A DNA stretch of 36,264 nt from NCBI GenBank assembly GCA_001873365.1, contig MNYZ01000104.1, positions 1-36,264 on the forward strand, given 5' to 3'. The notes beneath the pieces were generated by a model. It saw nothing but the letters and a program-made list of their open reading frames with translations. It searched no databases and had not been told where the DNA came from. This DNA is from Oscillatoriales cyanobacterium CG2_30_40_61. Its GTDB lineage: Bacteria > Cyanobacteriota > Cyanobacteriia > Cyanobacteriales > Microcoleaceae. The position numbers and the translations under genes were made by a program. Of the stretch, positions 3,733 to 32,578 are shown in pieces; positions within the stretch are counted from its first letter, which is position 1, and every line of letters begins with the position of its first letter.

Positions 3733-3761
3733 TTAAACTAAACCTATTGACTTAGTATAAT
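3733..3761 (+). promoter_or_regulatory. Probable promoter of the hicBA pair
   Basis: A perfect -10 box TATAAT at 3756-3761 follows a weak -35 (TTAAAC, 3733-3738) with a 17-bp spacer. Transcription would start around 3767-3770. This argues against the in-frame GTG at 3767 and for the ATG at 3782 as the HicB start. Confidence 0.5.
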
Positions 3762-3781
3762 AGCAGGTGATTCAGAAAACT

Positions 3782-4048: not shown

Positions 4049-4054
4049 GGAAGA

Positions 4055-4300
4055 ATGACTCCAAACTCTAAAAAAATTACACCAATTCGCTATCAAACTT
4101 TGGTTAAAGTTTTTGAATTAGAAGGCTTTATGGTGGTACGACAAAAGGGAGATCACCTGATTTTAACAAAACCAGGAGTTAACCGTCCTGTGGTTATCAA
4201 AACAAGCCCTGGCGAAGTTCCTGTGACTCATATTATGACCAATTTAAAAACAGCCGGAATTAATCGAGAGCGCTATTTTGAACTCCTGTCTCAACTTTAA
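4055..4300 (+). CDS. hicA: HicA-family mRNA interferase toxin
   Basis: An 81-residue protein of the YcfA/HicA family. It has the double-stranded-RNA-binding-like fold with the signature region VRQKGDHLILTKP, where the histidine is the residue usually needed for RNA cleavage, and a C-terminal helix LKTAGINRERYFELL. Most relatives have GSH where this one has GDH, a mild deviation. Partner of the HicB gene 6 bp upstream; the pair forms a type II toxin-antitoxin module whose toxin cleaves mRNA when free. A second, differently ordered HicAB pair sits at 27742-28148. Whether this toxin is active cannot be judged from sequence. Confidence 0.8.
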   Translation: MTPNSKKITPIRYQTLVKVFELEGFMVVRQKGDHLILTKPGVNRPVVIKTSPGEVPVTHIMTNLKTAGINRERYFELLSQL

Positions 4301-4657
4301 TCAGTCAAGAATATTATGAATTGTTTATGAAATTTTAGAAACCGATAAGGTGGTCTTGATAATTAGAACAAAAACCCATTACGGCGACTAATTTTAGTGA
4401 TCATTGCGATCGCACTTAACTTTTTATTATGGAACTATTTTACCGTTAGATTATTAATAATTAACTTACCCTAATTTCATCGGACGGGGTTGAAATGGGT
4501 TGTTCAAAATTCTTGCGAAATTAAACGGAAATGGGTTGATCTCCACCGAAAAGAATAGGGTTGTGTGCAAATACCTTTTTTCCTCTTTTTAACTTAACCG
4601 ATTTAAGAGATAAAAAGATTAAAAAAGGTGACTTTATTTAAAGTAGGAGGGATTAAA
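4301..4657. other. Intergenic stretch with a long imperfect palindrome
   Basis: No gene is seen. The main structure is an imperfect palindrome at 4573-4629. The left arm is ACCTTTTTT-cc-TCTTTTTA, the right arm is TAAAAAGA-tt-AAAAAAGGT, and an inner CTTAA/TTAAG stem lies between them. It ends 15 bp before the ribosome binding site of the hydrolase gene. It could be a bidirectional terminator or a leader structure. A HIP1 site lies near 4408. Confidence 0.6.
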
Positions 4658-5548
4658 ATGATAGTACATCCAATTTTAATAATTCTATTTAAAGCAGGAT
4701 TAATCGTTTTAGCGGTGGGTGCGATCGCTTATTTGTGTGCTTGTTTATTCATGTTTTTTCGACAAACTCGATTTATTTTTTTACCCTCCCGTTTAATTTC
4801 TATTACCCCGGATGATCTGGGTTTATCCTATCAAGATATTGAGTTAAAAATTCCTACCCCTTCAGGAAAAATAGAAATGATACATTGTTGGTGGATTCCT
4901 TCAGAAACTAATCCTAATCAAAAAGTGATTATTGATTTACATGGAAACCGCAATACTATTGAGGGAAATATCGGATATGCTGAACAATTTCACGAAATGG
5001 GATTATCGGTTTTATTAGTAGAATATCGGGGTTATGGACGCAGTACAAATCGCTTTCCCTCGGAAAAAACCGTTTATCAAGATGTAGAAGCAGCTTGGAA
5101 TTATTTAGTAAATAAACGACAAATTAATCCCGATAATATTTATGTTTTTGGTCATTCCTTGGGAGGAGCGATCGCAATTGATTTAGCATTTAAACATCCT
5201 GAAATTGCCGGATTAATTATTGAAAGTTCCTTTACTAATATTCGAGAAATGATCGATTATAAAAATAAATACTGGATGTTTCCAATTAATTTAATTCTAA
5301 CCCAAAAATTTGACTCCCTAGCTAAAATTTCTACTTTAAAAATGCCCCTATTATTCACCCATGGAACCGAAGATGAGTTAATCCCTAAAACCATGAGTGA
5401 AGACCTATTTAACGCCGCCACAGAACCCAAACAGCTTTTAATTGTTGCGGGTGCAGGTCATAATAATGTTAGACAGGTTGGAGGGAATCAATATTGGAAA
5501 ACAGTACAACAATTTTTAACTTTACAATCTCAGAAACCGGGTTTCTAA
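4658..5548 (+). CDS. Membrane-anchored alpha/beta hydrolase
   Basis: A 296-residue protein with one N-terminal membrane helix (about residues 5-30) and an alpha/beta-hydrolase domain of the Bem46/ABHD13-like kind. The catalytic triad is visible: the nucleophile elbow GHSLGG (Ser167), an acid in GTEDELIP (Asp239) and a histidine in GAGHNN (His268). An oxyanion-type DLHGN motif lies near residue 90. The start is fixed by AGGAGG at 4645-4650, 7 bp before the ATG; an in-frame GTG at 4628 lies inside a palindrome and lacks such a site. The last residues (QKPGF) and the stop come from a dispersed palindromic repeat. The substrate is unknown; a serine hydrolase or esterase facing one side of a membrane is likely. 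Confidence 0.85.
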   Translation: MIVHPILIILFKAGLIVLAVGAIAYLCACLFMFFRQTRFIFLPSRLISITPDDLGLSYQDIELKIPTPSGKIEMIHCWWIPSETNPNQKVIIDLHGNRNTIEGNIGYAEQFHEMGLSVLLVEYRGYGRSTNRFPSEKTVYQDVEAAWNYLVNKRQINPDNIYVFGHSLGGAIAIDLAFKHPEIAGLIIESSFTNIREMIDYKNKYWMFPINLILTQKFDSLAKISTLKMPLLFTHGTEDELIPKTMSEDLFNAATEPKQLLIVAGAGHNNVRQVGGNQYWKTVQQFLTLQSQKPGF

Positions 5549-6325: not shown

Positions 6326-7546
6326 TTAATGCAAGGCGTCTTCATCCAGTTGACTCGGACGTACAGAAATTTGTTCGGTTTTTTGTCCACGATGGACAGT
6401 AATTTTTAGGGGTTGACCAATTTTGCTTTTTTCCACCAAACGCTGTAATTGGTCGGCACTACTAATAGCTTGTCCATCAATTTCTGTAATCACATCACCC
6501 CGGCGCAAACCCGCATTTGCCGACGGACTTTTGGGAATAATTTGTACCACTAATACCCCATTAACTTCAGGAATTAACATTAAGGAATTAGGGTCATTAT
6601 TCAGTTGTTTTGCCATATCCGCCGTTAAGGTTGCCATGCGAATACCAATATAGGGATGGGCAATTTTTTCTCCTCTAACTAAAGCAGCTTCAATAGCTTT
6701 TGCAGCATCAATAGGAATAGCAAAACCAATCCCTTGACCATCGGCCCGAATCGCCGTATTAATCCCAATTACTTCTCCTCTATCATTTAATAGTGGCCCC
6801 CCGGAATTACCTGGATTAATTGCCGCATCGGTTTGAATAAAATCTAATCGTTTATCGGGAATTCCCACTTGAGAACTGGGACGATTTAAGGTACTAACAA
6901 TTCCCAGGGTAACGGTATTATCTAATCCTAACGGATTTCCCAAAGCAATCGCCCAATCTCCTACTTCAACTTCACTAGAATTCCCTAAGGGAGCCACGGG
7001 TAAATTATTACCATTAATTTTAACAACGGCTAAATCGGAGGGGTCATCACTACCACGAACTTCCCCTTGAAATTGACGACCATCTTTCAGGGTAACGGTG
7101 ACTTTATCGGCTCCTTTAATAACGTGGGAATTGGTTAAAATAATCCCACTACTATCAATAATAAATCCCGAACCCTGTCCCCGTTGTTGATATTCTTGGG
7201 GAGCTTGGGGCATTCCTTCTCCAAAGAAACGGCGGAAAAAAGGATCATCAAAAACAGGATCAGAAATATTAGCAGAAACCGTCCTTTCCGTATCAATTCT
7301 AACCACTGCTGGCCCGACTCGGTTCACAGCCCCTGAGACAAAGTTTCTGGGGGAATTAGAGTTAGGAATAGCAGCAACTTTTGGGGGTTGAGTAGGAGTT
7401 ACAATAGGTTCAGCTTGGGCAGAAGTGATCAAAAAATTGGGTAAAATCTGTATACCAATTAACGTTAACCCCACACTCAAAACCGCAACTAAAAGATAAC
7501 GAATTATGGAATTAATAGTAATAGTTTTGGGCTGTATTTTCTCCAT
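6326..7546 (-). CDS. HtrA/Deg-family serine protease with one PDZ domain
   Basis: A 406-residue periplasmic or thylakoid-lumen type protease. It has a short basic N-terminus, a hydrophobic signal/anchor segment (YLLVAVLSVGLTLIG) ending near AQA, then a trypsin-like domain with the triad His in NSHVI, Asp in PSDLAVV and Ser in NPGNSGGP. One PDZ domain occupies about the last 110 residues. Size and single PDZ match cyanobacterial HhoA/HhoB/HtrA, which degrade misfolded proteins outside the cytoplasm; which paralogue cannot be decided. The frame is open to an ATG at 7642 (438 residues), but the extra 32 residues do not look like part of a signal sequence, so the start at 7546 is preferred with moderate certainty. 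It is followed by a terminator and lies next to an Hsp20 gene, another stress protein. Confidence 0.9.
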   Translation of the reverse strand: MEKIQPKTITINSIIRYLLVAVLSVGLTLIGIQILPNFLITSAQAEPIVTPTQPPKVAAIPNSNSPRNFVSGAVNRVGPAVVRIDTERTVSANISDPVFDDPFFRRFFGEGMPQAPQEYQQRGQGSGFIIDSSGIILTNSHVIKGADKVTVTLKDGRQFQGEVRGSDDPSDLAVVKINGNNLPVAPLGNSSEVEVGDWAIALGNPLGLDNTVTLGIVSTLNRPSSQVGIPDKRLDFIQTDAAINPGNSGGPLLNDRGEVIGINTAIRADGQGIGFAIPIDAAKAIEAALVRGEKIAHPYIGIRMATLTADMAKQLNNDPNSLMLIPEVNGVLVVQIIPKSPSANAGLRRGDVITEIDGQAISSADQLQRLVEKSKIGQPLKITVHRGQKTEQISVRPSQLDEDALH

Positions 7547-7780
7547 AGCTTTATCTTCAATGATCTTATTTTCAGCCTGAAGCTGAGATTCTGATTCGTT
7601 AATACTCAAAGCAACTATCCTCAATTTTAACATAAAATTCATAAGAAGAAAAGCGGAAATATTGTCATAAATCCGCTTTCCTCTTTTCTATTATAGTCGA
7701 ATTTTCAAGAAATTTCGACCTGGATTAACAATATTCTTATTTAACCTTCCCCGATAAAATGTGGGTTCTATTGCTAATCC

Positions 7781-8215
7781 CTAACCCAAGGTTATTTTCA
7801 CGACTTTATTTTTTTCTTCCTCCGCTTTCGGTAAGGTTAGGCTCAGAATTCCATCTTTATAGTCTGCCTGAACTTGGGTATTTTGAATCCGAGTCGGAAG
7901 AGGAATTATCCGGCGGAATTTTCCATAACGGAATTCACTGCGACTGATGCCTTTTTCTTCCGTCTGGTTGGTTGATTTGCGTTCTCCCGTAATCGCCACC
8001 CCATCAAGACTAACTTGGACATCCAAATCCTCTGGATTCATCCCAGGAACTTCTAGTTTTAGGATAATCGCTTCCGGGGTTTCTTCGAGTTCAGCCGGAG
8101 GAAAGAGGGACATCCCGGCTTTTTCCGAAGGCAGGGCCAAACTATCAAACAGACGGTTCATTTCTCGTTGTAGAGAATCAATTTCTTGGAAGGGTTGCCA
8201 GCGTACTAACTGCAT
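7781..8215 (-). CDS. Hsp20 / alpha-crystallin small heat-shock protein
   Basis: A 144-residue small heat-shock protein. It starts MQLVRWQPFQEIDSLQREM, the usual N-terminal arm, then the alpha-crystallin domain with LKLEVPGMNPEDLDVQV, GERK and the YKDGILSLTLPK strand, and a short C-terminal tail. These proteins hold unfolding clients as oligomers until ATP-dependent chaperones act; cyanobacterial HspA also associates with thylakoids. GGAGG lies 8 nt before the chosen ATG; the in-frame ATG 21 bp upstream overlaps that site and is unlikely. A hairpin abutting the ribosome binding site may regulate translation. It is in the same orientation as the HtrA gene 139 bp downstream but probably transcribed separately. 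Confidence 0.93.
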   Translation of the reverse strand: MQLVRWQPFQEIDSLQREMNRLFDSLALPSEKAGMSLFPPAELEETPEAIILKLEVPGMNPEDLDVQVSLDGVAITGERKSTNQTEEKGISRSEFRYGKFRRIIPLPTRIQNTQVQADYKDGILSLTLPKAEEEKNKVVKITLG

Positions 8216-8223
8216 AATCGTTA

Positions 8224-8252
8224 CCTCCATTGACAAATTATTTGATACAATG
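8224..8252 (-). promoter_or_regulatory. Leader hairpin next to the hsp20 ribosome binding site
   Basis: On the minus strand CATTG (8252-8248) can pair with CAATG (8232-8228), with an inner CAAA/TTTG stem and a three-base loop. The last G of the outer stem is the first base of the GGAGG site (8228-8224). Cyanobacterial hsp17 leaders are known RNA thermometers. Whether this weak stem does the same is inference. Confidence 0.35.
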
Positions 8253-8560
8253 TTGACATAGGCTCGACTACAGCCTTGATGATTCTAAGGATAGTAAATC
8301 GGCCGCCGGAATGAATTCGGTTTTAACGAATAAAAAACGGGAAATAGCCGTACTTAAGATAAAGATTAGAAACCCAGGACGGGTAATCAGTAGCAGGCGG
8401 GATACAGTGGTGTATTTTTTTCTGTGTATAGTCTGGGGAATTTAATCTATAAACCTCAAGTATCTGTTCTTTGTGAATGAGTACGTTATTTAAGTTTTAA
8501 TACTTCCCAAGGTTAGAACTTGTTTTAAATTTTATAAAGATTATTCGTGAATTAATCCTA
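8253..8560. other. Divergent intergenic region between hsp20 and the ClC gene
   Basis: Promoters for both genes should lie here. I see no convincing -35/-10 pair, CIRCE element (TTAGCACTC-N9-GAGTGCTAA) or additional gene. Confidence 0.4.
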
Positions 8561-10423
8561 ATGACAACCACTCTGCCCAATAATCAGGGCATTCTGCCAC
8601 AGCAACCTGAACTTATCTCTGTTTCTGACCGCCTAACCAGCTTATTAAACCGTTTACAACCTCCCCCGCAAATATTAATTTTAATCTTTGCAATTTTAAT
8701 TGGCGGGGGGACAGGATTAGTTATGGTAATGTTTCACGGATTAGTGGAACTATTACAACGGTTAACCCTAGAAGATTTTATGGGCTTAACTATGCCCTTT
8801 GGTCTGTGGACATTAGCATTAATTCCACCGATGGGCGGTCTAATTGTCGGGTTAATTCGCTATCGTTATCAGGAATTTTTTGGCGAGGGGATTTCTTCTT
8901 TAATTAATACTCAAAGAATCCAAATTATTTCTCCCTTCCGACCCTTTATTAAACTGTTAGCCGCTGCTATTTCTTTAGGTACGGGTGCTTCTTTGGGTCC
9001 CGAGGGGCCGAGTGTGGAAATTGGGGCAAATTTAGGAGCAATTTTAGGTCAAAATTTTCAAGTTTCTAAAGAGCGCTATCGACTATTATTAGGCGCCGGA
9101 GCCGCCGCCGGATTAGCTGCTGGATTTAATGCTCCCATTGCTGGAGTTTTCTTTGCTTTGGAAGTAATTTTAGGCTCAAGTTTTGCGGCTTCGGGGGTGG
9201 GTTTAGTCCTCTTATCATCGGTGGTTTCTTCTGTAGTTGCTCGAATTGTTTTTGGTGACCATCCCGCCTTTTCTCCCCCGGTTTATGAGGTTCGTAGCAA
9301 TTGGGAATTATTACTTTATTTAGGATTAGGTTGTTTAGCCAGTTTTGTTTCCTTAGCTTATACCCAAGCGATTAAATTTTCTCAACGTTGTTTTCGCGGA
9401 GAAGTTCCGGCTTTCCAATGTTTAACTAAAATTCCCCGCATTTTACATCCGATGTTGGGAGGTTTATTTGTCGGAATTGTAGCCATTCAATTTCCCCATA
9501 TTCTCGGCCCTGGTTATGGCACAATTCAAGCCCTATTACAAGAGGGGCAATTTTCTTTAGATTTATTAATGATTTTATTAGTCCTTAAAATTATTGCTAC
9601 TTCTATTAGTTTGGGCAGTGGATTAGTCGGGGGAATTTTTGCTCCGGCGATGTTTATTGGGGCGACATTAGGAGCAACCTATGGGCAAGCTTTAGCGGGA
9701 TTATTACATCCCTTTCTAACTGATATTGCTCCCCCGGCTGCCTATGCCATGGTAGGAATGGCGGCGGTATTAGCATCGAGTGTGCGAGCGCCATTAACCG
9801 CAATTTTATTATTATTTGAAATGACTCAAAATTATCTAATTATTCTACCGTTAATGGCGGCGGTGGGGGTGAGTGTTTTAATTGTGGATTTGGTGCAATC
9901 TAATCAATCGACTTCGGGATTAAATTTACAACAAATGGGGGTTTATTTAGAACGACCCAATGAGTTAGAAATCTTACAAACTATTAGAATTTCTGAGGTG
10001 ATGGGTCAATCCTATTTAAGCCTTCCCTATTCTATGCCAATTTTAGAGGCAGGTGCGGTCATGGTACAACTGAATTGTCATACGGCTTTAATCTTAGATG
10101 AAACTTCTCAATTAGCTGGATTAATCACGGTTACAGATATCCGTCGTTCAATTTTTCAAGCCACAAACCCCGATTCTTCCTTAGCATTAGGAAAGCAAAT
10201 ATTAAAGGAAATTTGTACAACAGAAATCCTCTGTGCCTATGAAGATGAACCCGTTCAGGTCGCCTTAGAACGGATGGCCGCAAGAGATTTACCCCAGTTA
10301 CCCGTTGTTACCCGGGAACACCCGCGTCAAGTTGTTGGGATTATTGAAAAAGAACATATTGCTTTAGCTTGTAATATTGCCGTTACCAAAGATGCTTTAC
10401 AACCATATTTACGCAACCCGTAG
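8561..10423 (+). CDS. ClC-family chloride channel/transporter with two CBS domains
   Basis: A 620-residue protein. Residues 35-445 hold the many hydrophobic helices of a ClC domain with the conserved LGPEGPSVEIG (glutamate gate at E148) and GLVGGIFAPAMFIGA filter motifs. The first filter motif GSGIP is not recognisable; the corresponding loop appears to read GEGISSLIN. Two CBS domains fill about residues 475-605, where adenosine nucleotides usually bind to gate the pore. The protein moves chloride or another anion across a membrane, either as a channel or as an H+-coupled exchanger; the gating glutamate favours exchange but does not prove it. There is no clear ribosome binding site. It is convergent with serS, separated by a structured repeat. 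Confidence 0.93.
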   Translation: MTTTLPNNQGILPQQPELISVSDRLTSLLNRLQPPPQILILIFAILIGGGTGLVMVMFHGLVELLQRLTLEDFMGLTMPFGLWTLALIPPMGGLIVGLIRYRYQEFFGEGISSLINTQRIQIISPFRPFIKLLAAAISLGTGASLGPEGPSVEIGANLGAILGQNFQVSKERYRLLLGAGAAAGLAAGFNAPIAGVFFALEVILGSSFAASGVGLVLLSSVVSSVVARIVFGDHPAFSPPVYEVRSNWELLLYLGLGCLASFVSLAYTQAIKFSQRCFRGEVPAFQCLTKIPRILHPMLGGLFVGIVAIQFPHILGPGYGTIQALLQEGQFSLDLLMILLVLKIIATSISLGSGLVGGIFAPAMFIGATLGATYGQALAGLLHPFLTDIAPPAAYAMVGMAAVLASSVRAPLTAILLLFEMTQNYLIILPLMAAVGVSVLIVDLVQSNQSTSGLNLQQMGVYLERPNELEILQTIRISEVMGQSYLSLPYSMPILEAGAVMVQLNCHTALILDETSQLAGLITVTDIRRSIFQATNPDSSLALGKQILKEICTTEILCAYEDEPVQVALERMAARDLPQLPVVTREHPRQVVGIIEKEHIALACNIAVTKDALQPYLRNP

Positions 10424-10428
10424 TCAAC

Positions 10429-10477
10429 TCGTAGTAACCCCTTCAGGGGTTAGAGAGCCCGGTCGGGCTCACTACGA
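10429..10477. repeat. Three-stem palindromic element between convergent genes
   Basis: An outer stem TCGTAGT / ACTACGA (10429-10435, 10471-10477) encloses two tight hairpins: AACCCC-ttca-GGGGTT at 10436-10451 and GAGCCCG-gt-CGGGCTC at 10455-10470. It fills the gap between the ClC and serS stops and may serve as a two-way terminator or be a mobile repeat. Confidence 0.8.
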
Positions 10478-10478
10478 A

Positions 10479-11795
<1,317 letters not shown>

Positions 11796-13230: not shown

Positions 13231-13254
13231 TTGATTTAACTCCACTAATAATAA

Positions 13255-13435
13255 AAAACCGGGTTTCTAATCGTTTTCTCTGGATAGAAGATTTTTGTAT
13301 AAACCCGGTTTTTGAGATTTCTAATCGTTTTCTCTGGATAGAAATCCAGATTTTTGTATAAACCCGGTTTTTGAGATTTCTAATCGTTTTCTCTGGATAG
13401 AAATCCAGATTTTTGTAGAAACCCGGTTTTTGAGG
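13255..13435. repeat. Tandem repeat block of about 62-bp units
   Basis: About three head-to-tail units contain AAACCCGGTTTTTGA, then GATTTCTAATCGTTTTCTC, TGGATAGAAATCCAG and TTTTTGTATA. GGATAGAAATCC is an internal inverted repeat. The AAACCCGGTTT core is related to the AGAAACCSGGTTTCT family elsewhere in the window. The block lies between two minus-strand genes and forms the 3' end of the upstream one. Confidence 0.85.
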
Positions 13436-22627: not shown

Positions 22628-23674
22628 CTATGATTTATTTAAACGACGTTCTAATGCTTTTAAAGATCGGTAAAGTTCGGGTAATCGTCTGTAAATAGCA
22701 GCAGTCTTTAAATAGAGTTTATTCGCGATCGCCGGAGAACCGGAAACCACCTCCCCCGGTGCAATATTATTATGAACCCCAGATTGGGCCGTAACGATCG
22801 CCCCATCCCCTACCTTAACTTGATTAGCAATACCCACTTGACCCGCGAGTAACACCCCATTACCAACGGTGACACCTCCAGCTAATCCCACATGACCCGC
22901 AAAGGCACAATTTTGCCCCACGGTACAACCGTGACCAATATGAACTAAATTGTCTAATTTTGTGGCTTTGCCGATGCGGGTTTCTCCCACCGCCGGACGA
23001 TCAATCGTACTATTACATCCCACCTCTACCCCATCTTCTAAAACCGTAATTCCCGATTGTTCCATTTTCAGCCAACCCCCATCCGTCGGCACAAAACCAA
23101 AGCCTTCAGCACCAATTACAGCCCCACTATGAATCACGCAATCACAACCAATTTGGGCGCGTTCATGGATGGTACAATTGGCGTGTAAAATGCTGCGATC
23201 GCCAATTTTTACCCCTGGATAAATTACCACATTCGGATGTAAACAGACCCGATTTCCAATAGTAACCCCAGCTTGAATTACCACATGGGGGCCAATATAA
23301 ACTTCTGATCCAATCTTGGCACTAGGATCAATAATCGCACTAGGGTGAATTTGCGGTTGGGGTTGATAGGGTTGATAAAACAAAGCGATCGCCTCGGCGA
23401 AAAAAGCCCTAGGATTTGCTACGGAAATCCACGCCTTCCCCCCGGCGGTAGCTTGATTTTGTAAGGATTCATCTAATGGCAAAATCAACGCACTTGCCGC
23501 AGAAACGGCAACAAAAGACGCAAATTTTAACCCCTCAATATAACTGAGAGTTCCAGGAGTTGCCGTATCCACCGCCGCCACCCCTTGAATATCGGGATTA
23601 AGGGTGGGGTCATGGATCAAACTATGAGCATCAATTCCAGCGTTAAGTTTTTCAACCAGTTCACTAAATTTCAT
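22628..23674 (-). CDS. lpxD: UDP-3-O-acylglucosamine N-acyltransferase
   Basis: A 348-residue LpxD, which adds the N-linked acyl chain to UDP-3-O-acylglucosamine in lipid A synthesis. The N-terminal uridine-binding domain (1-100) precedes a left-handed beta-helix built of hexapeptide repeats (about 105-300, with many [I/V]Gxx[V/C] units such as IGSEVYIGPHVVIQAGVTIG). The motif GAEGFGFV and His in NLVHIGHGC, near the expected catalytic histidine, are present. The chosen ATG gives MKFSELVEKL; a TTG four codons upstream is in frame but less likely. In many cyanobacteria lpxD sits apart from other lpx genes, as it does here. Confidence 0.95.
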   Translation of the reverse strand: MKFSELVEKLNAGIDAHSLIHDPTLNPDIQGVAAVDTATPGTLSYIEGLKFASFVAVSAASALILPLDESLQNQATAGGKAWISVANPRAFFAEAIALFYQPYQPQPQIHPSAIIDPSAKIGSEVYIGPHVVIQAGVTIGNRVCLHPNVVIYPGVKIGDRSILHANCTIHERAQIGCDCVIHSGAVIGAEGFGFVPTDGGWLKMEQSGITVLEDGVEVGCNSTIDRPAVGETRIGKATKLDNLVHIGHGCTVGQNCAFAGHVGLAGGVTVGNGVLLAGQVGIANQVKVGDGAIVTAQSGVHNNIAPGEVVSGSPAIANKLYLKTAAIYRRLPELYRSLKALERRLNKS

Positions 23675-23915
23675 TATTAAGAACAATGCCAGGGGTAGGA
23701 AATTTTAATTTCACCGCAGTGGAATCTGATCGATTATATTATTAATCCGATCTCCTGTTAACAAATTTTGATTAAAAAAAATAAACCAAGACTCCGGGTG
23801 CTAGTCACACAGTTTCAATGGTTTACACTGCTCCATAGGTAGAAAGAATCGGGAGTGTAGAATTGTTTTTATAGAAGGCGATCGCCTAAGTTCTCCTCCA
23901 TCTAAACTAATAACC

Positions 23916-24626
23916 ATGAATAATCCCCTGGAAAATGGCTCTCAATATGACCTAGATTCTATTTTTGATCATCTGATCCAATCCCTAGAAATCGACCCCC
24001 ATCAACCCCCTATTCCCGAACAGACACACCATAATATTATGTCTGTCGCTGATTTCAACGGTTACGACCCCCATCATCCTCATTTTGATGTCTCTAACTC
24101 CTTTGAAAATGGGGAATATTATCAAGGTTTGCACCCATCTTTTATCTCTGACCTTGACCCTCAAACTCCAGAATTTCATCCAGGTGGGACGGACTTAGAA
24201 CAATTTAATCCCTATCAACTACCCGAACAGACGGACTACTCCACAGGATATCAAACCGATCACCATTTTGGAGGCATGGAAGATCACTCGCAACAAATGT
24301 CTACCTTTTCCGTAATGCAAAGTTCTGATCCTGTAGAAAAGGGAGATTCTAATAGTGTCACAATTTATTCAAATGGTGATGTTTATTGGGATAGAAGTGG
24401 CGGACAAGCTGGACATATTGATGGGCAGAAATTTTATAATACTGGCGACCATTATATTGGGCATTTAGGTGCTGATATGAAAGTCTATGATGCCCATGAA
24501 AAATGTATTGGTTGGGTGGATGCCAAAGGTCATGCTTATACCTTAGATGGGGCAGTTTTTGCCGAAGGAAAGACACCCATTTGGGCGGCGACGGTGTTAG
24601 TTTATAACACTTGTAGTCCAGGTTAA
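23916..24626 (+). CDS. His-rich protein with C-terminal beta-repeat domain
   Basis: A 236-residue protein without signal peptide or membrane helix. Residues 1-140 are low-complexity, rich in His, Pro, Asp and Gln and probably disordered. Residues 145-236 contain short repeats with the pattern xxGDVYWDRSGGQAGHIDG / YIGHLGADMKVYDA / CIGWVDAKGHAYT, which suggests a small beta-propeller or '4-fold beta flower'-type domain. I do not recognise a named family with certainty. It is followed 112 bp later by the coiled-coil/TPR/FGE-fold gene in the same direction, and both look like accessory genes. Function unknown. Confidence 0.7.
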   Translation: MNNPLENGSQYDLDSIFDHLIQSLEIDPHQPPIPEQTHHNIMSVADFNGYDPHHPHFDVSNSFENGEYYQGLHPSFISDLDPQTPEFHPGGTDLEQFNPYQLPEQTDYSTGYQTDHHFGGMEDHSQQMSTFSVMQSSDPVEKGDSNSVTIYSNGDVYWDRSGGQAGHIDGQKFYNTGDHYIGHLGADMKVYDAHEKCIGWVDAKGHAYTLDGAVFAEGKTPIWAATVLVYNTCSPG

Positions 24627-24738
24627 TTTCAACAAAAACTCTGTAGGGGTGAGGCGCGCCTCACCCCTATGCCCGAAATTGATTTCAGGGGTTGATTATA
24701 GAGATAAACCCTATAATTTATTAACAGGAGATTAACTG

Positions 24739-27552
24739 ATGACACGCTTATTACCAGGAGATGCAAAAATGGGATTTTGGGGTAAAATTAAAAGAGGGTT
24801 TGAATCTGTATTTCTTCCTCAGAAATACATTGCTGATACCCAAGCGATAAATACAAAAATAATGGTAGCTAATCAAGCTGAAATGGAGGAAAAACGACAA
24901 CAAATTCAATTAGCACAGTACAAATTACAATGTGTACAAGTAGCGAATAGTGCTATAATAGAGGAAAAAAGACAGGAAATTCAATTAGAACAAATTAAAC
25001 TACAATATATCGAAAATCAAAAAAATCGAGAATTTCAAAAAGAATTACAAGAATATATCCAAAGCGTTAATTTGGCTATTCAAAAAAGCAATATCGATTT
25101 CCAACGCTGGCGTTTTGAACAGGAAAAAACCCTGCAATCAGAATTAGCAACCTATGGTCGAGAAACTCAATTAATGGTGGCTCAATATCACCGAGAAACG
25201 GCGCTAAAAGTTGCCCATGACCAAGCAGAAGTTCAGAAAATTTTTGCTAATTGGCCGTTAACCTTACCTCCGGCGCAAATTTTAGAATCCTACAATAATA
25301 GTTTAATTCCCCTGCGAGTTTTTATTGCTCCTCCTAAAGTTCAGTTTGAAAAGGTTGTCACCACTCCGCAAAATTTCCCCGATATTGAATTAACTATAAA
25401 TCAAAAAATGCGCGATTTTTTTGATCAGTATTCTCAACAGGGAAGACCTATAGAATTTTTAGCCGGAGCTTGGGAAAGTAAACGTTTTCATAGCGAAGCC
25501 AGTATTAAAGCATTATTCGGGATGCTAAAATCAGAGCCGACATTAATATTAGAGTCGGAATTTGATGGAGATTATATCAATTTCAGAATCGCCTATTGGA
25601 CAATAGGACAACCTAACTATTCCTATCAAACGATTATTTCTCAAATGTCCTATCGGGATATTTTATATGATTCTGCTAAAACTCGCGCCCGGAAATGGAA
25701 AGTTACAAAAGACAAACTATTAGCACTCGGAAAAACCCAAGCTGATATTGATAAACGAGGCGGGGATAATGAAATTAATCTCAAAATTTGGGAAGAAGAA
25801 CAAAGTTTACGAGAGGAGGGAATAGACGATGATGAGTTAGAAATTCACTATAAAATTAATAGCAAGCATTTTGAAGATTTGTACCAGTTTTTAATTACCT
25901 GTCATTGTTTGGTTGCAGGTTGGATAGCTGACACTCATCATTTATTTCTCCATGATTTCACGCCTTTATTACCGCAACTCCTCCCAGATTTAACTCAGAA
26001 TATCCCCGAAGGAGAAGTTGCAGATTCAGTCATAGGTATGGTCATTTCTGGCTATGAACAAATCTACAAAATCCTAGAAGCAGAAAGTTCTCACCGTCTT
26101 CCTGAATTAATCCTAGAATTAGCACAGGGTTTAGTCAATTTACCCAATAAATCCTGGGCTAAAAATCAATTAATTAATTCTGTAGAATCTTGGTTGAAGT
26201 TAAGAAACCGGGTTTCTCAAAGAAACCCGGTTTCTGAGGTTTCTGAATTATGGGATACCGTTAATTCTGTAGTCATGGCTGAGGATTTAGACTATATTGA
26301 AAAAATCAATAATTTGTTAGAATCCTTGGGAGAAACTCACCGCGTTAATATTGTTAAAACTTGTTATCAACGGGGACAAAACCATTGTCAACAGGGAGAA
26401 TATACGACCGCCATTGATGACTTTACCCAAGTCTTGTTACTCAAACCTAATTCCGCCGATGCTAATTATAATCGCGGATTAGCCTATAGTAAATTAGGGG
26501 AATATTCCGCCGCCATCGAAGATTATCACCAAACCTTGCGACTGAATCCTCATTATGTCGAGGCTTACAATAATCGCGCTAATGCCTATTATAAATTAGG
26601 GCAATATGAAAAAGCGATCGCCGATTATAATTCCTGTCTCGCCCTTAATCCTAATTTACCCGATGTCGCCCATAATCGAGATGTTGCTCAAGGAGTTTGG
26701 GATGAAAAACGCCGTCAGGAAGGAGATAAAAAACGTCAGGAAGAAGCAGAAAAACGCCGTCAGGAACAAGAATTTGAGTTTGATGTAATTACCGTTAACG
26801 CCAAAGGAGAGGAAACCAAACGAGAACACTGTCGGGCTGAATTTTTTAAAGAGGATTTAGGCAATAATATCAGTTTAGAAATGGTATCCATTCCTGGGGG
26901 AACTTTTATGATGGGTTCAGCCCAAAATGAAGCCCATGCTAGTAGTGACGAATATCCCCAACATCCCGTTAATATTGCTGCATTTTCTATGGCAAAATAT
27001 CCCATTACTCAAGCTCAATGGAAAGCTATTATGGGAAATAATCCTTCTATTTTTGAATACACAAACCGACCCGTTGAGAGTGTAACCTGGCATAAAGCAC
27101 AGGAATTCTGTCAGCGACTTTCCCAAAAAACAGGTAAAACCTATCGTTTACCTTCTGAAGCGGAATGGGAATACGCCTGTCGTGCTGGAACTACAAGTCC
27201 TTTCCATTTTGGCGAAACCATTACAGCCGATTTAGCTAATTGTGGCGGTAATTGTGGGCAGGCCACCGATGTCGGTAGTTTCCCGCCAAATGCCTTTGGA
27301 TTATACGATATGCACGGCAACGTTGGGGAATGGTGCGCTGACCCTTGGCATGAAAATTATACTGGTGCGCCGGATGATGGAAGTGTTTGGGAGTCGGGCG
27401 GAGATACTCGATACCGGGTGATACGCGGAGGTTCGTGGAACTTCATTCCCTGGGATTGCCGCAGTGCTGGTCGTCACCGGTTAGAGCCGGACTGTCGGTT
27501 CTGGTACTACGGTTTTCGTGTTGTTTCCCTCCCGCCTGCGTGGACTCTCTAG
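24739..27552 (+). CDS. Coiled-coil / TPR / FGE-fold protein with DGR-like variable C-terminus
   Basis: A 937-residue multidomain protein. Residues 35-165 are a Gln/Glu/Lys-rich coiled coil. Residues 165-530 are an unrecognised globular region. Three TPR repeats lie at about 540-640, then a charged linker. Residues 705-937 form a formylglycine-generating-enzyme (FGE-sulfatase, C-type-lectin-like) domain with MVSIPGGTFMMGS, RLPSEAEWEYACRAG and MHGNVGEWC. The paired active-site cysteines of true FGE are not both present in the RGGSW region, so ligand binding is more likely than catalysis. The last 50 codons look like a DGR variable region. AGGAG precedes both the first ATG and an in-frame ATG at 24769, so either could be the start. 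An in-frame palindromic repeat lies at 26203. Confidence 0.85.
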   Translation: MTRLLPGDAKMGFWGKIKRGFESVFLPQKYIADTQAINTKIMVANQAEMEEKRQQIQLAQYKLQCVQVANSAIIEEKRQEIQLEQIKLQYIENQKNREFQKELQEYIQSVNLAIQKSNIDFQRWRFEQEKTLQSELATYGRETQLMVAQYHRETALKVAHDQAEVQKIFANWPLTLPPAQILESYNNSLIPLRVFIAPPKVQFEKVVTTPQNFPDIELTINQKMRDFFDQYSQQGRPIEFLAGAWESKRFHSEASIKALFGMLKSEPTLILESEFDGDYINFRIAYWTIGQPNYSYQTIISQMSYRDILYDSAKTRARKWKVTKDKLLALGKTQADIDKRGGDNEINLKIWEEEQSLREEGIDDDELEIHYKINSKHFEDLYQFLITCHCLVAGWIADTHHLFLHDFTPLLPQLLPDLTQNIPEGEVADSVIGMVISGYEQIYKILEAESSHRLPELILELAQGLVNLPNKSWAKNQLINSVESWLKLRNRVSQRNPVSEVSELWDTVNSVVMAEDLDYIEKINNLLESLGETHRVNIVKTCYQRGQNHCQQGEYTTAIDDFTQVLLLKPNSADANYNRGLAYSKLGEYSAAIEDYHQTLRLNPHYVEAYNNRANAYYKLGQYEKAIADYNSCLALNPNLPDVAHNRDVAQGVWDEKRRQEGDKKRQEEAEKRRQEQEFEFDVITVNAKGEETKREHCRAEFFKEDLGNNISLEMVSIPGGTFMMGSAQNEAHASSDEYPQHPVNIAAFSMAKYPITQAQWKAIMGNNPSIFEYTNRPVESVTWHKAQEFCQRLSQKTGKTYRLPSEAEWEYACRAGTTSPFHFGETITADLANCGGNCGQATDVGSFPPNAFGLYDMHGNVGEWCADPWHENYTGAPDDGSVWESGGDTRYRVIRGGSWNFIPWDCRSAGRHRLEPDCRFWYYGFRVVSLPPAWTL
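26203..26235. repeat. Palindromic repeat inserted in-frame in a coding sequence
   Basis: Two 15-bp cores (AGAAACCGGGTTTCT, 26203-26217; AGAAACCCGGTTTCT, 26221-26235) separated by CAA lie inside the TPR/FGE gene and encode RNRVSQRNPVS in an otherwise ordinary helical linker before the TPRs. The intergenic members of this family have a longer spacer. Confidence 0.9.
27404..27552 (+). other. Candidate DGR variable region (VR) at the FGE-domain C-terminus
   Basis: The segment encodes RVIRGGSWNFIPWDCRSAG and GFRVV, the form seen at the end of C-type-lectin-fold targets of diversity-generating retroelements. Aromatic or small residues (F, I, W, D, G, H, C, W, Y, Y) stand where template copies usually carry AAC/AAT asparagine codons, and the third bases (TTC, ATT, GAT, CAC, TGT, TAC, TAC) fit adenine replacement. 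A 33-nt adenine-free tract (27511-27543) follows, as expected for the mutagenic-homology boundary. The stretch is GC-rich against an AT-rich gene. No template repeat or reverse transcriptase is in the window. Confidence 0.6.
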
Positions 27553-27562
27553 CCCTTTTGCC

Positions 27563-27716
27563 GAGAAACCGGGTTTCTGCAATAACTATTGCTGAATACA
27601 AGAAATCTCGTTAAAGAAACCCGGTTTCTGAGCCCCTATAAGTATTCCGAGAAACCGGGTTTCTGCAATAACCTTTGCTGCATAATAGAAAGATTGCTAA
27701 AGAAACCCGATTTCTG
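27563..27716. repeat. Two palindromic repeat units before the second hicAB pair
   Basis: Units at 27563-27631 and 27649-27716 each have a palindrome core at both ends (AGAAACC-type and AGAAACCCGRTTTCT) and a spacer with TTTGCTGCATAATAGAAAGA or a variant. Same family as 28155-28371. Confidence 0.9.
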
Positions 27717-27741
27717 ACCGAGCACTTGACTTTTAGGAAAA

Positions 27742-27936
27742 ATGAAAGTTCGTGAGCTACTCAAAAGATTAGAAGTAGATGGATGGTATGAAGCAAGAAT
27801 GCGAGGAAGTCATCGAGTGCTAAAACATCCTAAAAAATCCGGTATCGTTGTTGTACCGGGTAATTTTTCTGATGAAGTTGCCATTGGAACCCTCAAAAGT
27901 ATCTGGAAACAAGCACAATTAGAGGATAAACCATGA
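27742..27936 (+). CDS. hicA: HicA-family mRNA interferase toxin
   Basis: A 64-residue YcfA/HicA-like toxin. It has the usual start MKVRELLKRLEVDGW, the catalytic-type MRGSHRVLKHP (with GSH) and the ending GTLKSIWKQAQL. The last codons overlap the start of the HicB gene by 4 bp (ATGA), the classic toxin-first order. The module is flanked on both sides by palindromic repeats, which suggests this small region tolerates insertion. It is a closer match to canonical HicA than the copy at 4055. Confidence 0.92.
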   Translation: MKVRELLKRLEVDGWYEARMRGSHRVLKHPKKSGIVVVPGNFSDEVAIGTLKSIWKQAQLEDKP

Positions 27937-28148
27937 AAGAATATATTGTCATTTTTGAATGGGCTGGGAGTAACTATTCTGCTTATGTTCCCGACTTACC
28001 CGGTTGTATTTCTACAGGAAAAACTTTAGAAGAAACCGAAAATAATATTAAAGAAGCGATTGAATTGTATATTGACACTCTGCGGGAAGATGGTCAACCC
28101 ATTCCCGAACCTATCCTAAAGGTTAAAGCAATTTCTGTAGCCGCTTAA
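27933..28148 (+). CDS. hicB: HicB-family antitoxin
   Basis: A 71-residue HicB-like antitoxin with the standard core YSAYVPDLPGCISTGKTLEE and a helix NNIKEAIELYIDTLREDG, ending in PEP-type residues. It has no separate DNA-binding domain, so it is the short form of HicB. It overlaps the HicA start by 4 bp and is presumably its neutralising partner. The order (toxin then antitoxin) is opposite to the pair at 3782-4300. Confidence 0.92.
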   Translation: MKEYIVIFEWAGSNYSAYVPDLPGCISTGKTLEETENNIKEAIELYIDTLREDGQPIPEPILKVKAISVAA

Positions 28149-28154
28149 CGAGTC

Positions 28155-28371
28155 GAGAAATCGGGTTTCTGACTTAACTTTTGCTGCATAATAGAAAGAT
28201 AGCTAAAGAAACCCGATTTCTGAGCAGTTAGAAATCGGGTTTCTGACTTAACTTTTGCTGGATAATAGAAAGATGACTGAAGAAACCCGATTTCTGAGCA
28301 GTTAGAAATCGGGTTTCTGTCTTAACCTTTGCTGCATTATAAAAAGATGACTGAAGAAACCCGATTTCTGA
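28155..28371. repeat. Three tandem palindromic repeat units (about 74 bp each)
   Basis: Units at 28155-28223, 28230-28297 and 28304-28371 each run AGAAATCGGGTTTCT, a spacer with TTGCTG-ATAATAGAAAGAT, then AGAAACCCGATTTCTGA. The ends are complementary so each unit can fold on itself. They lie between hicB and the convergent methyltransferase gene and may stop transcription. The regular spacing could be mistaken for a CRISPR, but the 'spacers' are alike. Confidence 0.92.
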
Positions 28372-28379
28372 GTACATAC

Positions 28380-29771
28380 TTATAAACGCTGTAAGAATGC
28401 CATAGATTCAACATGGGAAGTTTGTGGGAAAAAATCCGCAGGTTGTACCCGCACTAATTCATAAACTCCAGTTTCACATAAAATCTTCAGATCTCTTGCT
28501 AGGGTAGCGGGTCTGCAACTAATATAAATCAGTTGTTGCGGTTGCATTTCCAACAAAGTTTCTAAGACCGTGCGATCGCATCCTTTTCGGGGTGGATCAA
28601 GCAAAACCACATCCGGTTGATATCCTAACTTGGGTAATAACTTTTGCACCGTTCCTAATTTAAACTCAACCTGATCAAGCTGATTAAAAATCGCATTTTG
28701 TCGGGCTTGATCTATGGCGGTTTCTTGGACTTCTAAACCCATAACTTGGGGAAGATCGGAGGGCTTAATTGAACCTCCTTGTTTTTTCAATAAATAGGAA
28801 GCTAGGGGTAAAGTAAAGGTTCCAATCCCACAATAGGCATCAACAATTCGTTCAGTTCCTTTTAAATTAAGTTCTTGTAGCATTATTTCTAATAACGCTT
28901 CCGCCACTTCCGTATTCACTTGAAAAAACGTATCGGGGCCCAGAAAAAACGTTAACCCCCCAAATTCTTCCTTTAAATAGGGATCACCCGCTAAACATCG
29001 GGTTTCCTGACCAAAAATAACATTAGTTTGATCGGGATTTAGATTTAAACAAACCCCTTGTAACCCCGGATATTGTTCTAACCAGGTTTCCGCCTGTTCC
29101 GTCAGTCCGGGTAAACTAGGTTGGGTAGAAATTAAGGTTAATAACATTTCCCCGGTACGCCGTCCAATTCTTAGGGATAGATGGCGAAGTTTGCCCCGAT
29201 GTTGAGCCTCATCATAAATCGACCAGCCTCGGTTTTGAATATCCTGTTTCACATTAGCCAGTAAAGGATTTAGCCGTTGATCCTGTACCGGACATTGATT
29301 TAAGTTAACTAAACGATGGCTATGTTTTTGAAAGTAACCCGCTTGTACTTGACCCGTTGCCGAGCGTCCTAGGGGATAGGTAACTTTATTACGATAACCT
29401 AATTCCGACGCTCCTGCTAACACCTGAGCCACCGGAGGATCGATAAATCCTCCAATTTTTTCTAAGGTTTTAAACACTAAATTTCGCTTACTTTGCAGTT
29501 GCAGCCCATAATCAATATGTTGCCACTGACATCCCCCACATTTATCGGCCACAATACATCGAGGGGAAATCCGATCGGTTGATGGGCTTAAAACCCGGTC
29601 TAACTTGCCTTCTGCATATTGGGTTTTTACCCGCACTAACCGCACCCGCACCCGATCGCCAGGAACCGTATCAGGAACAAAAATAACCCGCTCTTGGTAA
29701 CGACCAACGCCACTACCTTCATCGGTCAAATCTGTGATTTCGACTTCAACTTGTTGCCCTTGCTGCCACAT
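28380..29771 (-). CDS. rlmD: 23S rRNA (uracil-5-)-methyltransferase, RlmD/RumA-like
   Basis: A 463-residue TrmA-family enzyme that transfers a methyl group from SAM to C5 of uridine in rRNA. An N-terminal TRAM domain (1-60) precedes an iron-sulphur cluster motif with Cys72, Cys78, Cys81 (CGGCQWQH) and a further Cys near 159. The SAM-binding domain shows IVDAYCGIGTFTLPLA and LLDPPRKGCDRTVLE, and the catalytic cysteine is in IYISCRPATLARDL. Members include RlmD, RlmC and RlmCD, and the exact target uridine cannot be told. The ATG at 29771 lies next to heptamer repeats. The stop is just beyond the palindromic repeat block. Confidence 0.93.
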   Translation of the reverse strand: MWQQGQQVEVEITDLTDEGSGVGRYQERVIFVPDTVPGDRVRVRLVRVKTQYAEGKLDRVLSPSTDRISPRCIVADKCGGCQWQHIDYGLQLQSKRNLVFKTLEKIGGFIDPPVAQVLAGASELGYRNKVTYPLGRSATGQVQAGYFQKHSHRLVNLNQCPVQDQRLNPLLANVKQDIQNRGWSIYDEAQHRGKLRHLSLRIGRRTGEMLLTLISTQPSLPGLTEQAETWLEQYPGLQGVCLNLNPDQTNVIFGQETRCLAGDPYLKEEFGGLTFFLGPDTFFQVNTEVAEALLEIMLQELNLKGTERIVDAYCGIGTFTLPLASYLLKKQGGSIKPSDLPQVMGLEVQETAIDQARQNAIFNQLDQVEFKLGTVQKLLPKLGYQPDVVLLDPPRKGCDRTVLETLLEMQPQQLIYISCRPATLARDLKILCETGVYELVRVQPADFFPQTSHVESMAFLQRL

Positions 29772-30238
29772 TATTAATCAGTTATCAGTTATCAGTTATC
29801 AGTTATCAGTGTAGAGACTACCTTCACGCTATGGGGGCGTTTTTACCAGTTATCAGTCATCAGTGGGTTGATCAAGATTTTAGTTAATTTTAAAAAAAAT
29901 CTCTCCAGAACCTGCCTCTACACAGTAAACAATAAAGTATAGATTTATTTTACTGTAAATAACTGCCAACTACCTCTTAACTGATAACTGATAACTGATG
30001 ACTGATAACTGATTAACCGTTGGCGGTTAAAAATTAAGAATTGTTAAGGGTATTCATACTGAACCTGGACAGATAACTCTTGACTTTGCCCGATCTCCAC
30101 GACTTTGCACAGGTGTTTCCACCCCACTTTGATCAGGATGGGTGAAAGTTTACAAAGGTTATGACTTCCCCTGATCCCCTCAAGTCGCTAAACTACTTAA
30201 TGGTATCTTGAAAAACTTTAATAGCTCTGAGGTTTTAG
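29772..30238. repeat. Intergenic region with heptamer arrays (CAGTTAT)n and inverted (ATAACTG)n
   Basis: Direct arrays of CAGTTAT lie at 29778-29810 and 29847-29864, and the reverse-complement form (ACTGATA-type) at 29980-30014. They could pair across about 115 bp. These are short tandemly repeated sequences typical of filamentous cyanobacteria. The rest, 30015-30238, should hold the apcD promoter; no clear box pair is seen. Confidence 0.8.
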
Positions 30239-30724
30239 ATGACAGTAGTTAGCCAAGTTATTCTCAAAGCTGACGATGAACTCCGTTATCCTAGCGTTGG
30301 TGAACTCAAAAACATCAATGACTTTTTAAAAACGGGTGAACAGCGCGTGCGAATTGCTTCGACCCTTGCGGATAATGAAAAGAAGATTGTAGAGCGTGCT
30401 AGTAACCAACTGTGGAAAAAGCGCCCTGATTTTATTGCCCCCGGTGGTAATGCCTCTGGATCAAGGGAACGGGCCCTATGCCTTCGGGACTATGGCTGGT
30501 ATCTGCGGTTGATTACCTATGGAGTTCTTTCGGGTGATAAAGATCCCATTGAAGACATTGGTTTAATCGGTGTCAAAGATATGTATAACTCTTTGGGTGT
30601 TCCGATGCCTGGGATGGTGGAAGCGGTTCGTTGTCTCAAAGAAGCGTCTCTGGCGTTACTTGATGACGAAGATGCTAAGGAAGCAGCCCCCTACTTTGAC
30701 TTTATCATTCAAGCCATGTCCTAA
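30239..30724 (+). CDS. apcD: Allophycocyanin-B alpha subunit
   Basis: A 161-residue phycobiliprotein and minor core component of the phycobilisome that acts as a terminal emitter passing energy to the photosystems. The chromophore-binding cysteine is Cys81 in [17 protein letters not shown], and the globin-like helices and ending [10 protein letters not shown] match ApcD rather than ApcA. GAGG lies 6 nt before the ATG. It stands apart from the apcABC operon, as usual. A hairpin terminator follows. Residues 67-79 ([13 protein letters not shown]) are slightly unusual compared with the common GQR variants, but the fold residues are kept. Confidence 0.95.
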
Positions 30725-30749
30725 TTTTCAGCCTGGTTTTCAGGTGTCT

Positions 30750-30787
30750 GTGAAGATGTACTTAGTGTTCGTCTTCACGGATTTTTT
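30750..30787 (+). terminator. Rho-independent-type terminator of apcD
   Basis: A stem GTGAAGA (30750-30756) / TCTTCAC (30772-30778) is followed by GGA and six T, starting 26 bp after the apcD stop. Confidence 0.8.
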
Positions 30788-30806
30788 ATATGTAGCAGGG
30801 AATGAG

Positions 30807-30956
30807 TAATGGGTAATGGGTAATGGGTAATAGGTAATGGGTAATGGGTAATGGGTAATAGGTAATAGGTAAAACTTGACTCCCCCTGCTCCCCCTGCTC
30901 CCGGTGCCTCCCGGTGCTCCCTATTCCCTATTCCCTATTCCCTATTCCCTATTCCG
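30807..30956. repeat. Composite heptamer repeat: (TAATGGG)n, GTAAAACTTGAC, (CTCCCCCTG)n, (CTATTCC)n
   Basis: TAATGGG/TAATAGG heptamers at 30807-30871 are followed by GTAAAACTTGACTCCCC, then 9-bp CTCCCCCTG-type units, then CTATTCC heptamers to 30955. The same order of the first three parts returns at 36109-36264. It lies between apcD and the convergent HEAT/phosphatase gene. Confidence 0.9.
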
Positions 30957-30964
30957 GTGTTCCC

Positions 30965-32578
30965 TCAAGAATTTGGAAAAGAACGCCGATAATTGCGCAG
31001 GGTTTGAATTAATCTGCCTCCTCGTTTTAGGGCGATATCAGCTAATTCCACAATCCATTGATTCGGTATAGCTTGGGGTTGCACCGCTACAATATAATTG
31101 AGGGCTTCTCCTTCTTTTCCGATTCCTAAACCATAGGCATATAGGGTAAAGGCGATCGCAGTTGCTCGGCTAATTCCCGCTTGACAATGAATTAATAAAT
31201 CTCCTTGATGGGCATGAACAGATTTCATAAAATGAATGGCTTTTAAAATATGTTGAAGACTGGGTAAAACATATTCAGGATCATGGCAGGGAGTATCAAT
31301 ATCATCAAATTCTAATCGTAATCGATGGGGAACTTGATCAAACCCTTCAGGCAGTTCACTCCCCAGATTACCAATAGAAATTAAATAGCGAATATTTGCT
31401 CCTCGATATTTTTGTAAAATATAATCACCGACTTCTGCCCTAGAAGCAATCCAGAGTTTAGGTAAATTAGCCTGGGGGGAAGTAATATCAGAATCAAATA
31501 ATATTTTTAATAGGGTTGTTGGTGAGGGGGAATCTAATTTTTCTAAGGCCGTTTCTGCCCAGGAGCGCACATAAAGATCCGTATCATTCAAGGCGGTTTT
31601 TAGCCCCCCAATAGCTAAGGGAGTATTCATAGATTGAATCGTTTCCACCACTTTTGCCCGCACAAACGGATCGGGATCATGAATTTTATTCAGTAACTTA
31701 TTAATAATAAAATCCCCTCCAATTCGACCTAAAACTTCAACAACACGGATTCTAACATCTGAATTACCATGATTAAGAGCTTGTAAAAGTACCTTAATGG
31801 CAAAGGAATCCCCAATGGTTTCTAATCCATAAACGGCATTAGTATAAACATAAAATTCCTGATCATCCAGGGCATTTTTTAACCCAATAATTGCCGCGGC
31901 TCCGCCTAAATTCCCCAAGGCAGTTGCCGCCCGACCTCGGACATAATGATCGGGATCTGAGACTAAAATTTCTCTTAATTTTGTGGTAGCTAAACGATTG
32001 TTGATTTTACCTAAACCGGTGGCGGCTCGCCAACGAACTTGACTATCTTCATGGTGCAAAGCCATAATTAATCCTCGAATTGCCCGATCGCTGCCTATTT
32101 GCCCTAGCCCCCAAGTTGCCCAGAGACGGACTTTTTGTTGGGGATCTTTTAAAGCTTTTAATAGAGAAGATTCAGCAGCTTGACCGATTTGAGCGATCGC
32201 CCAAGCTGACCAAGCATTGACAGATTCATTCTGATGATTTAATCCTTTGAAAAACCAAGAAAGTAATAGGGGTGAACGGGTTTGTCCCAACAGACGAATT
32301 TTTAAAGCCAGGGAAATGTTTAACTGGAGTACCAGAGAAAAAGCCTTGATTTGAAATTCAGGTTTAACGATTTTTGTTAATAGTATTCCTTGAATGATAT
32401 TCAATTTCAAACCCAAACTTACCAGTTGCAGAATTAATTCTTCTGACTCAAGCTCCCCCAATACCTCTGCGAGAAAATCAGGGGTCAATGCACCCCGCAA
32501 ATAGTCTTGTTTGAGTTGTTCATCACTCAACTGATGCAGCCGTTTTTTTAAAATTTCAATATCGTAGGAAGGAGTCAT
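30965..32578 (-). CDS. HEAT-repeat protein fused to a Cys-based protein phosphatase domain
   Basis: A 537-residue protein. Residues 1-120 are helical. About eight HEAT-like repeats, of the type found in phycobilin lyases (CpcE/F) and IaiH-like proteins, cover about 120-360 (units such as DPQQKVRLWATWGLGQIG and DPDHYVRGRAATALGNLG). Residues about 385-537 form a dual-specificity/tyrosine phosphatase-like domain with the P-loop HCQAGISR (Cys465, Arg471) and an upstream DIDTPCHDPE segment that may hold the general acid. The fusion suggests a phosphatase directed by the HEAT scaffold to a partner protein. There is no signal peptide. It is divergent from ruvB. The exact substrate is unknown. Confidence 0.85.
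   Translation of the reverse strand: MTPSYDIEILKKRLHQLSDEQLKQDYLRGALTPDFLAEVLGELESEELILQLVSLGLKLNIIQGILLTKIVKPEFQIKAFSLVLQLNISLALKIRLLGQTRSPLLLSWFFKGLNHQNESVNAWSAWAIAQIGQAAESSLLKALKDPQQKVRLWATWGLGQIGSDRAIRGLIMALHHEDSQVRWRAATGLGKINNRLATTKLREILVSDPDHYVRGRAATALGNLGGAAAIIGLKNALDDQEFYVYTNAVYGLETIGDSFAIKVLLQALNHGNSDVRIRVVEVLGRIGGDFIINKLLNKIHDPDPFVRAKVVETIQSMNTPLAIGGLKTALNDTDLYVRSWAETALEKLDSPSPTTLLKILFDSDITSPQANLPKLWIASRAEVGDYILQKYRGANIRYLISIGNLGSELPEGFDQVPHRLRLEFDDIDTPCHDPEYVLPSLQHILKAIHFMKSVHAHQGDLLIHCQAGISRATAIAFTLYAYGLGIGKEGEALNYIVAVQPQAIPNQWIVELADIALKRGGRLIQTLRNYRRSFPNS

Follow-up and report, generated by a model that had tools for sequence, protein, structure and literature searches.

The 3' end of a lectin-type-fold gene in the window (the whole analyzed stretch of 36,264 nucleotides, corresponding to contig C1 of genome G000; 4.82 Mb, 119 contigs, 99.07% complete) raises the question of whether this segment is the variable region (VR) of a DGR target and, if so, whether it is presently being rewritten. 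A preliminary description of the same DNA had proposed both a DGR VR at the C-terminus of an FGE-fold protein and its diversification in trans from elsewhere in the genome. These two claims fared differently in the analysis reported here.

The target gene and its variable region

The features of the target gene and its immediate upstream neighbor are as follows:

23916–24626, + strand: upstream ORF (236 aa), conserved alongside the target gene in congeners; sub-threshold beta-flower match only
24739–27552, + strand: target (variable protein) gene, 937 aa, with TPR repeats and a C-terminal FGE/C-type-lectin-fold domain (ORF list, Pfam)
26878–27525, + strand: FGE-sulfatase (C-type-lectin-fold) domain, residues 714–929 (PF03781, E = 5.5e-50)
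27414–27513, + strand: VR core, 100 bases aligned to the template, with 17/30 template adenines and 3/70 other bases changed
27510–27543, + strand: adenine-free GC-rich tract by base count, conserved in congener VRs and templates, presumed to act in homing (IMH-like)

The whole VR (27414–27549) ends at the stop codon, i.e., at the very 3' end of the gene. The 90 bases from 27421 to 27510 contain exactly 14 adenines, in agreement with the earlier by-eye count of about 14, and reach 57.8% GC in a gene that is AT-rich as initially stated (39.7% GC, 32.8% A). The closing adenine-free tract was also correctly noticed, except that it spans 34 rather than 33 nt; it is the longest such tract in the target gene (the runner-up has 16 nt) and the fourth longest in the window, where the three longer runs are of low complexity. 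We take this tract to be the DGR homing tract (IMH, as opposed to IMH* in the template). A 184-nt adenine-free run at window positions 1476–1659, made of the 12-nt repeat GGCGTGGYGTNN, is located within the ORF at 1228–3576.

Catalytic formylglycine-generating enzymes are marked by a catalytic cysteine pair; for the window protein, the FGE assignment is one of domain homology. Its FGE domain is homologous to TvpA (PDB 2y3c; E = 1.4e-24), the alignment extending up to the C-terminal variable end. PADLOC returned nothing for this protein, its upstream neighbor or the C119 protein introduced below, and an AlphaFold model of the target, built from five sequences (mean pLDDT 40), was not relied on.

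Adenine-confined variation relative to congener templates

The template used for the adenine test originates from a congener, G004 (Planktothrix sp. PCC 11201), and not from G000 itself. Over the 100-base core, the window VR differs from this template at 17/30 adenines vs. 3/70 other bases (p = 1.3e-8). A second G000 VR, on contig C119, shows 15/30 vs. 3/70, and an adenine excess is observed in all 20 VRs compared (p from 1.0e-18 to 6.7e-3), persisting for G002 and G004 when templates from within the same genome are used. At core position 91, the window VR has a non-adenine change that is common to most VRs and to the G002 template, so that the G004 template is probably derived there.

At the codon level, each of the two G000 VRs has changes in 8 of the 9 template Asn codons (at the first or second base, as expected from the adenine-substituted AAC/AAT codons that the preliminary description had pointed out), compared with 8/59 Asn codons changed outside the VR between the G000 gene and its G004 orthologue. 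In the gene bodies of the same pair, 26/245 adenines vs. 46/625 other bases differ at first codon positions and 10/349 vs. 27/521 at second codon positions; adenines of the gene body are not special to the degree seen in the VR. The presumed homing tract reads GCGCTC in both templates (G002 and G004) and GGACT or GGATT in 18 of the 20 VRs (of the remaining two, one alignment row ends earlier and the other has another reading at this site). An IMH vs. IMH*-type difference is present here, the GC-rich VR tract being unlike its template counterpart.

The C119 VR, situated at the end of another FGE-domain gene (Pfam shows FGE only in its protein), is the single near-copy of the window VR in G000 (84% identical), and two of the three FGE genes found in this genome possess a VR. 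Outside the VR, the window and C119 genes differ at 410/652 aligned third positions; inside it, only 5/31 non-adenine third positions differ (p = 2.4e-7 vs. outside). A direct comparison of the two VRs yielded differences at 16/30 template-adenine sites vs. 4/70 others. Common non-adenine bases combined with scrambled adenines are the pattern predicted by copying from one template. Taken as a comparison of sequences, the congener template and the adenine-confined differences in both G000 VRs strongly support 27414–27549 as a genuine DGR VR on a C-type-lectin-fold target, which bears out the first of the two initial claims.

The third FGE gene of G000 (contig C80) has no match to VR or template DNA queries. 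A 39-nt match at C99:26146–26184 (L003, about 1480–1545) was considered as a template and rejected, as it reads GGACTC (VR-type) and not GCGCTC (template-type); this homing-tract-like stretch with a VR-type ending is located outside any FGE gene and appears to be a remnant of a VR gene tail, the gene itself having been lost. A 22-nt template-like match is present at C84:11069, where a filter of at least 90 bases left nothing in common with window positions 23001–32000.

DGR cassettes of Planktothrix and the state of the G000 target

The G000 assembly yielded no match to the RVT_1 profile at E <= 0.001 and none to a congener DGR RT query at E <= 1, while its best match to avd (E = 0.38, 29% identity) is unconvincing. 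DNA searches for a template with VR and template queries returned nothing beyond the two VRs and some short, weak matches, and a homing-tract pattern allowing up to 3 mismatches recovered only the two VRs. In the window itself, the DGR RT query produced chance matches only (best E = 0.91 among the matches listed), as the preliminary description had it. The second initial claim, that of diversification in trans from elsewhere in the genome, found no support: the proposed genome-wide search for an adenine-rich near-copy next to a DGR RT revealed neither a template nor an RT in G000, nor a convincing avd. This result, named beforehand as one that would contradict the whole proposal, speaks against present activity, and diversification in trans in G000 today is not supported; it does not refute the DGR origin of the VR. 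With respect to a phage origin of the VR, no VR match was found among 50,697 phage records and no exact match to the homing-tract pattern in viral contigs.

A comparison across the genus (one genome per species; including G007, P. paucivesiculata PCC 9631, and G006, a metagenome-assembled genome) identified VR copies in seven of the nine other genomes, none coming from G001 and the 73%-complete G005. A complete avd-RT-template cassette is present in G002 and G004, with avd followed by a 352-aa RT and, directly behind the RT, an adenine-rich template that is non-coding; about 1.5–1.8 kb lie between the end of the window-gene orthologue and the RT start, and the tested Avd protein, that of G002, scores 141 bits against NF033474 (cut-off 80). 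In G009, an RT with 73% identity is found at a different locus, accompanied by another template and by a VR gene of its own. Altogether, a DGR RT of this type was detected in 3/8 VR-bearing genomes (G002, G004 and G009); other RT matches in the genus are 24–34% identical. Beyond Planktothrix, weak VR matches were also observed in five genomes (G018, G023, G028, G031 and G036).

Remnants of the cassette are found as well. Thus, G008 has kept avd (93%) at the shared locus (L129, G008:C57, 8461–8845), where the match breaks off immediately ahead of the RT and picks up again past the RT (among the matches listed), and RT and template searches of G008 found no RT of this type and no template, which indicates that cassette loss does happen in this genus. 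Fragments of avd are left in two further genomes, G001 and G007, the one in G007 containing a stop codon. Compared with the template of G004, that of G002 (L064, G002:C36, about 7566–7721) is shortened by a 4-nt deletion, and the same deletion, with a shifted reading frame (among the matches listed), is present in the G002 VR on contig C11 (L135, about 7324–7469), though not in the other two G002 VRs. In the core, the C11 VR differs from the G002 template only at template adenines (six, plus position 71, which is A there). Judging by the shared deletion, trans homing appears to have carried the defective template sequence into a remote target. A frameshifted template such as this one would make each homing event a damage, and such damage could be a driver of cassette losses.

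Some other observations concern the FGE domains of the genus. Those at L066 (G009, about 10129–11102) and L007 (G000, 7778–8872) are 79% identical at the DNA level, yet their VRs do not share a template type, as though the target had changed from one DGR to another. At L140 of P. paucivesiculata PCC 9631 (3462–5228), a single ORF encodes two FGE domains in tandem. Both have VR-like tails, and the inner tail lies away from the 3' end of the gene.

Both positions at which congeners have a cassette are located inside G000 contigs, and neither holds one there. The site of the G009 cassette, beside a gene that is presumably lpxB-like, was found within contig C90. The site of the G002 and G004 cassettes, downstream of the target gene, is occupied in the window by the following features, after which a methyltransferase-type gene follows:

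27564–27723, no strand assigned: two copies of a 74-nt repeat directly 3' of the target gene (repeat family D2)
27742–27936, + strand: hicA toxin gene, within the interval taken up by the DGR cassette in G002 and G004 (PF07927, ORF list)
27933–28148, + strand: hicB antitoxin gene, in the same interval (PF15919, ORF list)
28156–28377, no strand assigned: three more copies of the 74-nt repeat (repeat family D2)

Dispersed repeats with the near-palindrome AGAAACCCGGTTTCT occur at window positions 27564–28377, 13238–13433 and 26203–26242, both in intergenic DNA and inside the target gene.

Together, the evidence from these sites, the avd gene of G008 and the avd fragments favor cassette loss in G000 over an assembly gap. 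That the change at the window locus was a loss is our inference. G006 and G009 have a common cassette-free arrangement there (among the matches listed), so that other lineages may instead have gained the cassette at this locus, and its movement between loci is also possible.

The extent of non-adenine divergence between VRs provides an additional, suggestive indication. Within each of the cassette-bearing genomes G002 and G004, VR pairs differ at 0–1 of 68–70 non-adenine sites, and in genomes without a detected RT the values range from 0/70 (one pair each in G003 and G008) up to 12/70; such counts would fit ageing after cassette loss. At third codon positions, the non-adenine part of the VR is no different from the gene body for orthologues of G002, G004, G008 and G009 (p = 0.11–0.68) or with inclusion of G003 (C26) and G006 (C249) (p = 0.11–0.76); a single low value (p = 0.007 for G007, C160) comes from a tandem-duplicate gene with poor body alignment and was given no weight. 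Third positions give no sign of rewriting later than the split from most congeners and cannot date the last rewriting.

On balance, we consider it quite probable that 27414–27549 is the VR of a DGR target whose cassette was lost in the G000 lineage, and that the window and C119 VRs are now most likely frozen. In the proposed scenario, an Avd-aided DGR RT in an ancestor would have copied the template with random bases introduced at template adenines, and the resulting cDNA would have replaced the 3' end of the target gene, with the adenine-free GC-rich tract serving in homing. This would have given a C-type-lectin-fold domain, attached to TPR repeats, a variable face that probably engages in ligand binding. 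The avd-RT-template cassette would then have been lost (rather than hidden in an assembly gap), and the G000 target gene probably carries the frozen last product of this DGR.

Among the alternatives, a DGR still rewriting both VRs in trans, with its RT and template hidden in a gap of the assembly or on a replicon absent from it, deserves the most attention, even if we regard it as rather unlikely. With an assembly of 119 contigs, such a location is possible, and remote targets are known in cyanobacteria (PMC7517822). The VR pairs with 0/70 non-adenine differences in G003 and G008, both without a detected DGR-type RT, make a hidden or recently lost RT conceivable in the genus. These points have to be weighed against the lack of an RT, template or convincing avd in an assembly of such completeness, against the two known cassette sites, which lie within contigs and hold no cassette, and against the 4/70 non-adenine differences between the G000 VRs, as compared to 0–1 in RT-bearing G002 and G004.

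A transfer of the gene, or just of its 3' end, already diversified, from a DGR-bearing Planktothrix into a lineage that never had the cassette appears improbable. Acquisition of the target gene alone was named as an alternative for Treponema denticola (PMC4891356), and downstream neighborhoods do vary between congeners (among the matches listed); nevertheless, synteny with G009 extends to either side of the window gene and synteny with G004 to its upstream side, and two non-allelic G000 VRs have one template type in common. Least likely by far is an explanation without any DGR, in which an ordinary lectin-fold surface evolved under diversifying selection and was homogenized by gene conversion between paralogues. 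Although the RGGSW...GFR frame is seen widely in FGE-fold tails, those of enzymes included, gene conversion alone would not scramble adenine sites selectively, whereas the changes are confined to template adenines in 20/20 VRs, the bias holds against the own-genome templates of G002 and G004, and the template lies directly behind an RT and an Avd gene. We retain the reading of both G000 VRs as most likely frozen products of a lost cassette. Its extension to the entire genus, in which the Planktothrix DGR would be transient and then discarded, RT and template being lost repeatedly and the diversified receptors kept as a frozen repertoire, is offered as a tentative and, at present, rather doubtful conjecture.

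Relation to known systems and significance

Overall, this analysis illustrates that a DGR product can be recognized from one genome, with support from congeners, even though its own RT and template were not found; RT-first surveys would miss genes like the G000 target. Limits of RT-adjacent surveys have been discussed (PMC8144416), along with the uneven distribution of DGRs in cyanobacteria (PMC8867640) and the existence of inactivated RTs and of DGRs with several VRs (PMC3521204). Orphan VRs as such are a kind already known, from Treponema denticola and Nostoc, and the G000 instance and the genus-wide Planktothrix picture were not found in the literature searched. In our opinion, this genus-wide picture, with a DGR RT in only a part of the VR-bearing genomes and a template deletion of G002 reappearing in a remote VR, is more interesting than the G000 VR. 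As the genus spans the full cassette, avd without a detected RT, and VRs alone, the fate of orphaned hypermutation targets becomes testable.

Among the closest known systems are the cyanobacterial DGRs described in PMC7517822, with lectin-fold VRs at the 3' ends of multidomain genes and with remote targets; Planktothrix is not named in the main text of that paper. It reports remnant TR-VR homology in the Nostoc paralogue all3226, with no nearby RT or pseudogene, and presents the idea that diversification components may go once a good variant has been selected. The G000 target likewise has a lectin-fold VR at the 3' end of a multidomain gene, and it differs from the cases described there in that neither RT nor template was detected anywhere in its assembly, the template coming from congeners instead. 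A similar situation is described in PMC4891356 for Treponema denticola isolates, which keep VR genes without RT and TR; these orphan VRs, read there as leftovers of lost DGRs, differ from the templates of other isolates mostly at adenines, as do the VRs of G000 from the templates of congeners. The Treponema denticola orphans belong to another phylum, are of another target type (many lipoproteins) and are found within one species, whereas the Planktothrix case extends between species of a genus.

Hypervariable FGE/FGS domains in cyanobacteria are also represented by the FGS effectors of VMAP-ternary conflict systems, which, according to PMC7159879, are DGR-linked. Effectors of this kind have a vWA domain either fused to the FGS domain or encoded next to it; a Pfam search of the proteins themselves finds no vWA in the window protein (TPR and FGE) or in the C119 protein (FGE only). 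Finally, the window protein has its C-type-lectin fold in common with TvpA, the Treponema DGR variable protein, and, in contrast to it, combines this fold with TPR repeats and a long N-terminal part.
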